From the NCBI GenBank assembly GCA_014800735.1, contig JAAVFP010000048.1:1-43704 (forward strand): a stretch of 43,704 nucleotides of DNA, in the 5' to 3' direction. Made by a program: the position numbers and the translations under genes. The notes under the pieces were generated by a model that saw only the letters and a list, made by a program, of their open reading frames with translations, searched no databases and had not been told where the DNA came from. Shown here in pieces: positions 1 to 19,363 of the stretch (its first letter is position 1; each line of letters opens with the position of its first letter). Source of the stretch: Bacteroidales bacterium (GTDB taxonomy: Bacteria > Bacteroidota > Bacteroidia > Bacteroidales > Muribaculaceae).

Positions 1-106
1 AGCCTTTCGTTCAGGCGCATAGCTCGCTATGCTTCTTCACTCAAGCCCCAAATCATCTCAAAAATAACTTCCTTTTATCTGTTCATTTATTTTTCTCACT
101 TACTTA
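1..106. repeat. Palindromic repeat element, copy 1 (right half only)
   Basis: The window opens inside a copy of the repeat found complete at 9252-9446 and 19176-19363. The central hairpin GCATAGC-TC-GCTATGC lies at 17-32 and the right terminus reads CACTTACTTA, ending at 106. The distance from hairpin centre to right end (about 82 bp) matches the other two copies. The hairpin stem differs from theirs (GCATAGC instead of GCTTAGC), but both sides have changed together, so pairing is kept. The left arm is outside the window. The element sits 26 bp upstream of the nucleoside phosphorylase start. Confidence 0.75.
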
Positions 107-9251: not shown

Positions 9252-9446
9252 TAAGTAACTCTTAAAAATTAGTTTATATTTTGACTTGTAAGTAAACCCT
9301 TCGGGCCAATATATCTTTGCTTGTCTTTGCGGTGCTTTTATTTCTTTCACTCAATCGCTTAGCTCGCTAAGCTCATTCGTTCAATAAATAAAATCCCTCG
9401 CAAATCCTTCGCAAATATATATTGTCTAATTTTTAAGGGTTACTTA
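9252..9446. repeat. Palindromic repeat element, copy 2 (complete)
   Basis: This 195-bp element has 21-bp terminal inverted repeats at 9252-9272 and 9426-9446 that differ at one position (TAAGTAAC...ATTAG). Inside, 9307-9343 and 9386-9424 are again complementary with some mismatches (CAATATAT, TTTGC, TTTGCG, TTTTATTT in the same order). The centre at 9357-9372 is the hairpin GCTTAGC-TC-GCTAAGC. It separates porin A from imelysin. TA dinucleotides at both ends could be a target-site duplication. No ORF is contained. It resembles a MITE or a large structured intergenic element. Confidence 0.82.
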
Positions 9447-9459
9447 TTTTTATTATTTA

Positions 9460-10782
9460 TTATTTGCGGATAAACCAGCCGATGTAGGCCACACCGATGC
9501 TGAACTCGTTTTCGGAATTATAGGAGCCTTTGCCGAACACTTTCTGAGTGCCGATTTGACGGGTGGTGTAGTCGGCCTTCACCACCAGATTGGGCAGTGC
9601 GAACCAGTTGATGCCGGCCTGCCACTGGCTCACTTCCAGGCGGCGGTCCATGGTTTGCTTGCCGTCGCCGCGGTACTGCGGGTTATAGTATTCGTAGCGG
9701 GCATAGGGGTAGATTGTGGGGAAGGGTGTGCGGACCACCGAAGCGATGTTGAAGCCCAGTTCGGCACCGTAGCTAAGTGTGTTTTTTGCTATGGGTATCA
9801 GGCGGCTGTAGGGCGACTTATTGGATAGCATACGGTTGATTTCGCCCAGAGGGCCGGCGTTGCCTACGTAGCCGTAGGTTAGATTGGCACGCGCCGTGAT
9901 GAAGCGGTTGCGGTACTGGGCGTCCCAGGTGCCGATGGCCACGGGTATACGGCCGATGGCGGAGTAGGTGTGCTCCTTGTCGGAGTTGCTGCCGGCGTCG
10001 CGGCAATAGTAGAAGGACACACCGGTGCGGAAGCCCTTCACACCCGAGTAATCCAGGCGAGCAACGTAGCCGGGCGATGTGAAGTTGTCGCTTTCAAATA
10101 CTCCCTCCTTACCTCCTATAATCCACTCGTTGCGGTCGAAGCCGTTGGCGTTGAGACCGGCAACAACCATCAGCTGATAGTCAAAACGGGTGGCACGGCG
10201 ACCGAAGGTGCCGAAAATTTCGATACCGTTCTCATGCCATGTGCTGGGCAGTAGCGATGTTTCGGCCTGGGGGCGCGAGGTGCCGAAGAAGTTGATGGGC
10301 TCGTGGTGGGCGTTGGTAAGGCCGACGGGAACAATCAGATGGCCTGCACGGACGTTGAATGCCGGAACTATCAGGCGGGTGATGTGGAACTGCTCCAGGG
10401 CCACCTCGCCGCCCTTTTCAATCTCGGTTTCATACTCGCCGTTCTCGCTGTTCTCCAGCTCCACGGCCGTGCCTACACCGCCGGCTTCGAACTCAATTTC
10501 GGCCCCGAGAATCCACTTCTGATTGAATTTGTAGTCGAACGCCAGCACAAAGCGTGGAATCTCGATTGTGTTGCGGTGTGTGCGGGAATTGCCGTTGGAT
10601 GTGCCGTCGAAACGATTGGCGCCGTAATCCTTGAAACTTGCAAGCATCTCGCCGTAGCCACCGAAGCGTAAACTGCGATAACCGGCCGTATCGGCCTGGG
10701 CAGCAGCCTGCTGCGGAGCCTGTGCCGAGGCCGCTAAGGCAAGGGCGAGCGAGGCAAGGGTGATAATGATACTTTTTCTCAT
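9460..10782 (-). CDS. Outer-membrane porin A (OprP/OprO-like beta-barrel)
   Basis: This 440-residue protein begins with a type I signal peptide (MRKSIIITLASLALALAASA, cleavage near ASA-Q). A beta-barrel pattern follows: LRFGGYGEMLASF near 38-50, RFVLAFDYKFNQKWILGAEIEFE near 77-100, VRAGHLIVPVGLTNAHHEPI near 143-162. These match phosphate-selective-porin-like proteins in which a strand pair with LIVPVG is typical. It is the first gene of the minus-strand run and is preceded by a good promoter at 10809-10816. Only 210 bp, nearly all repeat copy 2, separate it from imelysin. Porins of this type often accompany imelysin genes; substrate unknown. Confidence 0.8.
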   Translation of the reverse strand: MRKSIIITLASLALALAASAQAPQQAAAQADTAGYRSLRFGGYGEMLASFKDYGANRFDGTSNGNSRTHRNTIEIPRFVLAFDYKFNQKWILGAEIEFEAGGVGTAVELENSENGEYETEIEKGGEVALEQFHITRLIVPAFNVRAGHLIVPVGLTNAHHEPINFFGTSRPQAETSLLPSTWHENGIEIFGTFGRRATRFDYQLMVVAGLNANGFDRNEWIIGGKEGVFESDNFTSPGYVARLDYSGVKGFRTGVSFYYCRDAGSNSDKEHTYSAIGRIPVAIGTWDAQYRNRFITARANLTYGYVGNAGPLGEINRMLSNKSPYSRLIPIAKNTLSYGAELGFNIASVVRTPFPTIYPYARYEYYNPQYRGDGKQTMDRRLEVSQWQAGINWFALPNLVVKADYTTRQIGTQKVFGKGSYNSENEFSIGVAYIGWFIRK

Positions 10783-10992: not shown

Positions 10993-11039
10993 TGTCCATT
11001 TTTTAGGATAAAATGTGGGCCGGTTACAGATATTTTGAT

Positions 11040-11047
11040 TACCTTTG
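11040..11047 (+). promoter_or_regulatory. -7 box for esterase pair
   Basis: TACCTTTG matches TAnnTTTG exactly and lies 28 bp upstream of the ATG at 11076; no clear TTTG is seen at the -33 distance. It overlaps the upstream extension of the esterase reading frame (a frame open from 11013), which argues for the ATG at 11076 as the true start. Confidence 0.6.
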
Positions 11048-11075
11048 CGGTGTATCATACTTTTTTATCATTATC

Positions 11076-13348
<2,273 letters not shown>

Positions 13349-19175: not shown

Positions 19176-19363
19176 TAAGTAAGTATTCAAATTTAACCGA
19201 TTGTAAGTTATTCATAAATCTTTTATACTCTATGCGACTTCTTTTTTGCCAATTTCAGATTGTCGTTCAGTCGCTTAGCTCGCTAAGCTCCTTCGCTTCG
19301 CACTGAAATTGACTAAAAAAATAAGTTCGCATATAGCATAAATTAAATTTAAACACTTACTTA
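19176..19363. repeat. Palindromic repeat element, copy 3 (complete)
   Basis: This 188-bp element has 21-bp terminal inverted repeats at 19176-19196 and 19343-19363 with two mismatches (TAAGTAAGT...AATTTAA). Inner arms at 19231-19258 and 19303-19333 are complementary (TATGCGA, ACTT, TTTTTT, CAATTTCAG in the same order). The central hairpin GCTTAGC-TC-GCTAAGC is at 19273-19288. The terminal TTA at 19361-19363 is the stop codon of lpxA. A perfect -7 box TAAATTTG (minus strand, 19188-19195) with TTTA 19 bp upstream lies in the left terminus and points to the gene at 18567-19100. Confidence 0.82.

Follow-up and report, generated by a model that had tools for sequence, protein, structure and literature searches.

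MITEs are usually viewed as passive debris defined by their ends. REP/BIME sequences, which go with RAYT (Y1) transposases, are repeated intergenic palindromes arranged in inverted pairs. MITEs linked to IS630 and palindromes that fold as RNA are also known: in the portion of PMC2229807 covered here, RUP of Streptococcus pneumoniae, a MITE of IS630-Spn1, is short and intergenic with IS630-like terminal inverted repeats (TIRs) and a TA target, and ERIC and Correia/NEMIS elements are about 100-200 bp long, have TA ends and give transcripts with stable stem-loops. Structure in the mRNA at the transposase gene has been described for ISPpu9 and for IS200 transposase leaders (PMC8450116, partial text). 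Palindromic structured-RNA candidates from gut Bacteroidetes are listed in the available part of PMC8040213, and that of PMC2864571 names motifs including Transposase-resistance and GUCCY-hairpin.

The palindromes studied here were found in a stretch of 43,704 nucleotides (the window), which is contig C48 of a Bacteroidales (Muribaculaceae) genome of 2.6 Mb in 58 contigs, 85.7% complete. They form a multi-copy family of about 165-225 bp with ends reading TAAGTAA...TTACTTA. Likened by description in the covered portion of PMC2229807, they resemble RUP in being short and intergenic, with IS630-family TIRs and a putative TA target, but the centre of the palindrome is a one-strand conserved structure common to IS5-family elements, and the host group is another. 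Their size, TA ends and stem-loop folding recall ERIC and Correia/NEMIS, a likeness drawn from description; those elements are reported, in the text covered, to act on neighboring mRNA, whereas our palindromes show no firm gene-orientation bias. Unlike REP/BIME, they are longer, have other ends and do not track Y1 genes. IS5-family elements and their MITEs have the same core but are not the family of the window copies, and in contrast to the ISPpu9 and IS200 leaders, the core also occurs in MITEs without a transposase gene, often at both ends. The PMC8040213 candidates are likewise palindromic, structured and from Bacteroidetes, but are not tied to insertion sequences in the text covered; a partial prior sighting of the core among them or among the PMC2864571 motifs is possible. 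The literature searched, which included few subscription papers, holds no description of the core or of inward structured cores at the ends of IS5-family elements, and we know of none of the latter. The first-pass annotation had recognized no named family, and we found none either in that literature or in Rfam at the gathering cut-off, where the window gave no match and 16 loci gave two tRNAs only; a further Rfam comparison gave three weak matches far below the cut-off (E at least 0.36).

The first-pass annotation had described two complete copies and one half copy in the window, all of which are present (Table 1), with ends reading TAAGTAAC or TAAGTAAG. The constant distance from hairpin center to right end that it reported is about 82-83 bp by count in all three copies. 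The central hairpin GCTTAGC-TC-GCTAAGC was correctly read in copies 1 and 2, but the paired change attributed to copy 1 (GCATAGC/GCTATGC) belongs to the half copy. Folding, which had been proposed as a check, gave z-scores of -8.2 for copy 1 and -5.6 for copy 2, and none of 200 dinucleotide shuffles was as good in either case. As to their placement in gaps, both complete copies sit between open reading frames, and the half copy occupies the end of the contig, a short distance upstream of a gene start; the neighboring genes include imelysin-like, lpxA-like and phosphorylase genes.

Table 1. Palindromic elements, cores and terminal repeats in the window.
Feature	Position	Strand	Remarks
Complete IS630-type MITE, subfamily A (copy 1)	9252..9446	-	motif (folded) strand minus
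Structured one-strand core of copy 1	9322..9408	-	model R1, 83.1 bits, E 4.3e-18
Left terminal inverted repeat of copy 1, TAAGTAACTCTTAAAAATTAGTTTATATT	9252..9280	+	other species have the same repeat
Right terminal inverted repeat of copy 1	9427..9446	-	plus strand reads TAATTTTTAAGGGTTACTTA
Complete IS630-type MITE, subfamily B (copy 2)	19176..19363	-	motif strand minus
Conserved core of copy 2	19238..19324	-	model R1, 83.2 bits, E 3.9e-18
Partial MITE, subfamily C (half copy), cut by contig end	1..106	-	
Truncated core of half copy	1..68	-	R1 positions 1-68, 42.1 bits, E 8.8e-08

A simple pattern scan for an intrinsic terminator (a GC-rich stem followed by a T run) found none inside copies 1 and 2, and the sole terminator-like site (9479-9497) falls outside copy 1. 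A promoter of their own was rejected, the single promoter-like match, in copy 2, being at chance level with nothing more inside the complete copies. The hammerhead-like look of the motifs CUGAUGA and GAA was also set aside, since the strand order does not suit a hammerhead and Rfam gave no match. The end TAAGTAA provides a TAA stop, and co-directional genes terminate within its first three bases at window 19357-19363 (the lpxA-like gene) and at loci L026, L074, L167, L180, L197 and L218; an element that inserts at a stop codon may therefore do no harm. Elsewhere in the window, two adjacent open frames at 11013-13348, whose repeats are 72-79% alike at the DNA level, are probably tandem paralogues.

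The proposal required further copies, and matches of at least 68 bases to copy 1 occur at 20 places in the genome, the window copy included. TAGCTCGCTA occurs 25 times, against once for a reversed control. Many of these copies are 94-97% identical to copy 1, and the genome copies fall into three subfamilies, A (copy 1), B (copy 2) and C (the half copy). Three contigs begin within a subfamily C copy (window 1-106, L034 and L036), so the assembly breaks at the repeats and copy numbers are probably underestimated. Palindrome families are largely species-specific. The TAAGTAA end pattern (up to 2 mismatches) was found in 11 of 49 genomes of the genus, with 0 control matches in all genomes, and in at least 119 stretches of named genomes. 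Among the 80 matches listed, 66 titles name Bacteroidales or a subgroup and 4 give Bacteroidetes without further detail; the other 10 name something else and may in part be chance matches. Two IMG/VR viral contigs carry a TAAGTAA element with the core (L285 12938-13120 and L286 11423-11605). Longer variants, with extra insertions in an arm or the apical hairpin that in some cases replace part of the core stem, are located at L010 1501-1725, L017 1501-1757, and L095 and L097 1501-1720. In longer elements (e.g., L024, L167 and L179), visual inspection shows the end tip repeated (CTTACTA, CCTACTGA) within the right end; this second copy is seemingly missing from the 166-bp families and is possibly an additional transposase site.

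In four loci (L225, L258, L246 and L253) the ends are paired 1.11-1.12 kb apart, with overlapping or broken transposase frames between them. Two 1.12 kb elements with the same ends match the NCBIfam model transpos_IS630 (NF033545) at 108.9 and 120.9 bits (cut-off 100), and Pfam DDE_3 matched in three of the four full elements of about 1.1 kb. The check for an autonomous transposase between such ends, suggested in the first-pass annotation, thus led to one of the IS630 family. The palindromes share TIRs with this full-length element and are dispersed as many short copies lacking a transposase gene; the shared ends and the transposase make them MITEs with IS630-type ends, and sequence comparison supports reading them as non-autonomous elements that carry the ends of IS630-family insertion sequences. 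TA forms part of both ends in the listed complete copies of the window's genome, and at L244 an empty paralogous stretch of 95% identity is consistent with a TA duplication except at one base. The earlier picture, a mobile element with TA as its target, retained structure and compensatory changes, agrees with our results, a TA duplication being suggested by this single case. We infer that an IS630-type transposase moves the palindromes into TA sites. A Y1 (IS200/REP) transposase was considered as partner and rejected: PF01797 does not track the elements, and two draft genomes (G001 and G018) have the ends and no PF01797 match, which also sets the palindromes apart from REP/BIME with RAYT. At L122 136-474, a Y1 (IS200-type) transposase gene with hairpin-like ends of its own lies close to a palindrome, probably by coincidence.

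We extracted 109 end-bounded elements of 80-340 bp. The 98 that measure 150-300 bp fall into 24 families at 75% identity, 17 of which have the central motif (GAAGGAG-stem-GACTGA) used for orientation. In an alignment of thirty diverse elements oriented by this motif (A1), 95.0% of 1276 cells at 43 pairs are paired, versus 74.9% in shuffled and 38-50% in slid controls. Double changes amount to 238 cells (64.7 shuffled, at most 64 slid) and are spread over 29 pairs, and the covariation score is 0.518 (0.145 shuffled, at most 0.110 slid), figures to be read with the structure having been derived from the same alignment and with relatedness inflating double-change counts. The slid control retains the relatedness and yet is far lower. 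At pair 76-93, G-C occurs 18 times, G-U 12 times and A-C never. The claim that the arms change between copies while their pairing is kept is thus upheld between families, by the compensatory changes it called for. The close similarity of many genome copies is what would be expected of an ordinary decaying MITE whose pairing was inherited from a recent perfect palindrome, but that account is contradicted by the covariation, with compensatory changes between families as distinct as the 24 found here, 17 of them with the motif, and we consider it hardly credible.

The two strands are not equivalent. Among elements whose motif is clear, the motif strand gives the better fold of the two in 71 of 71 (one place, L003 and L023, is counted twice), and with the center swapped for a neutral hairpin it is still better in 16 of 17 family representatives and in 68 of the 71 elements. 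Arm mismatches were counted once per family under strand-neutral arm pairing, the strand being chosen by the center alone and the center excluded from the count. Among the 17 representatives there are 88 A.G versus 3 C.T mismatches and 54 G.U versus 20 A.C, as well as 16 A.A versus 7 T.T and 3 G.G versus 1 C.C. The A.G mismatches are concentrated at distances of about 1-2, 13-14, 25 and 35-36 nt from the motif. Outside TAAGTAA elements, 29 representatives of 83 cores show the same asymmetry (A.G 92 versus C.T 0; G.U 39 versus A.C 14; in 24 of 29 the arms fold better when read on the motif strand). These cores were found with the core model and so are not an unbiased sample; seven of the 83 are from other Bacteroidales families and have other or undetermined ends. 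The remaining 27 of the 98 elements show no clear motif (score below 6) and were omitted from the strand counts except for L061; in 9 of them the strand chosen by score folds worse, and some may be old, other or wrongly bounded. From the A.G/C.T and G.U/A.C skew, a single strand, as RNA or single-stranded DNA (ssDNA), appears to be selected.

Changes private to single copies were analyzed across nine copy families, using 91 of 99 copies. Where two such changes fall on one pair, pairing is preserved in 11 cases and broken in 3, and L480 has a paired TIR change in a single copy, which would also be seen if template switching or gene conversion in the hairpin held the arms complementary with no selection at all. 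Such correction is blind to strand and would not give A.G 88 versus C.T 3, or 92 versus 0, nor would it conserve one core across elements of the IS5 and IS630 types. Palindrome correction alone hardly explains the asymmetry, which contradicts it as the sole cause; as such we hold it to be very improbable. The first-pass annotation had offered a selected fold and gene conversion or replication of variants as alternatives, and both appear to act: covariation and strand asymmetry across families argue for selection on one folded strand, and the private double changes that retain pairing suggest arm-to-arm correction or template switching.

The core is not confined to TAAGTAA elements. Searches with a covariance model (R1) built on the central 87 nt located it in 36 of 49 genomes of the genus, in 90 of 149 genomes of the family (21 of 30 genera) and in 6 of 198 genomes of the order, 4 of them outside the family, under the stricter filters applied to more than 40 genomes. 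Many cores lie within elements having other ends (such as GAGCTTGTTTAATAATAAATGTTA, GACCCCGTTCCCCAATATTTGTTA and GAGTGTGTTTGAATTTAA, the last with one core); in those seen at both ends, the flanking bases are mostly TTA or TAA. One such element, in L351, sits inside a TAAGTAA element and has TAA to either side, a 3-bp duplication. Two others, L417 (about 1.06 kb) and L436 (about 1.14 kb), have IS5-family transposase sequence and a core inside each end; the IS5 transposase model NF033580 matches L417 at 171.2 bits (cut-off 110) and L436 in two pieces below the cut-off. The two-core elements are assigned to the IS5 family by a full element that shares their ends and contains an IS5 transposase, and by the TNA duplication at L351. 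Adjacent core pairs less than 1.1 kb apart, compiled by hand from core-match tables, number 48, of which 40 face inward, 4 outward and 4 the same way, and at least 4 of the 8 non-inward pairs (L013, L055, L244 and L351) join cores of two separate elements. In L417 and L422 the core's folding strand precedes the transposase frame on the strand of that frame. Five loci with IS630-type full elements gave no R1 match. These data support a conserved, one-strand-selected core with recurrent G.A mismatches, common to IS630-type MITEs and IS5-family elements, and the presence of the fold in two unrelated transposon classes suggests that the fold itself helps elements to spread. It could be a structured nucleic-acid module that acts as one strand and depends on no single transposase, a shared domain of RNA or ssDNA, selfish or insulating, that IS5- and IS630-type transposons carry because it boosts their propagation, both in many genomes of the family to which the window belongs and in some further Bacteroidales; we hold this tentatively, at somewhat short of an even chance.

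Resident copies decay almost neutrally, and spreading lineages keep the structure. Single private changes at paired sites comprise 26 G.U versus 13 A.C (P = 0.053), 8 A.G versus 6 C.T, 15 T.T and 8 A.A. Against this spectrum the long-term excess of G.U is modest, and the strong signal is G.A. Orientation relative to co-directional host genes, called with a simple longest-ORF script, was examined three times. The first analysis (n = 85) gave 31 sense versus 25 antisense (P = 0.50). The second (65 of 107 elements, at overlapping loci and with a stricter strand call) leans to sense, with 28 versus 15 (P = 0.066), or 22 versus 10 where both gaps are below 200 (P = 0.050). The third, in 46 of 60 newly fetched loci, gave 14 versus 11 (P = 0.69), or 9 versus 9 with gaps below 200. 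Convergent sites are rare (10 of 111 in the second and third analyses). We do not find a host-gene orientation bias convincing. The mostly intergenic position of the copies and the sense trend of the second analysis would suit resident copies that the host retains to regulate mRNA, in the manner of ERIC or NEMIS, but the new loci, the near-neutral private changes and the largely species-specific families make this improbable. Given the weakly biased private changes and the lack of a clear bias in insertion orientation, selection seems to act on propagation.

We favor the view that the palindromes are IS630-type MITEs whose one-strand core works as an insulating RNA that aids propagation, an explanation to which, as a whole, we give a probability of about 0.5. 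The core would work as RNA: transcription entering from outside would make the inward-reading strand, which would fold at once, and the fold would insulate the element by blocking, slowing or destabilizing the entering transcripts. Insulated in this way, an element would retain usable ends and, if it is an autonomous copy of the IS5 type, a low level of transposase; elements retaining the fold would propagate better, and arm-to-arm correction would further help palindromy. RNA is favored because the folding strand of IS5-type ends points inward and lies before the transposase frame in L417 and L422. Fold-back protection in IS10 and IS50 and the transposase leaders named above offer precedents for structured transposase mRNAs. 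Since single-core MITEs face one way, their insulation would be one-sided. DNA, too, forms stable G.A and G.T pairs, so the working form may also be ssDNA. The motif strand might instead fold as ssDNA during replication or excision, its hairpin promoting transposition, as strand-specific hairpins do work in integron attC sites and IS200/IS605. This would fit with selection that appears stronger on propagation than on resident copies, with the absence of gene-orientation bias in the new loci, with the tolerance of DNA for G.T and G.A, and with the inward cores at both ends, by which each strand has one well-folding core near its 5' end. The transposases found are, however, of the IS630 and IS5 families, which use double-stranded DNA; Y1 transposases do not track the elements, as G001 and G018 illustrate; and the 11-12 nt spacing of mismatches fits an RNA helix at least equally well. 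A working ssDNA form is in our judgment unlikely, though well within reason.

Beyond the first-pass annotation, then, come the strand asymmetry, the IS630 partner and the core common to IS5-family elements. Here the interior of a MITE is conserved, on one strand only, and two transposase systems that are unrelated have it in common across many gut species. If the explanation as an insulating or otherwise working domain is true, it would mean that a functional domain of RNA or ssDNA is carried by short DNA transposons, and the palindromes would offer a system in which the control of bacterial transposition by transcription or by DNA folding can be tested.
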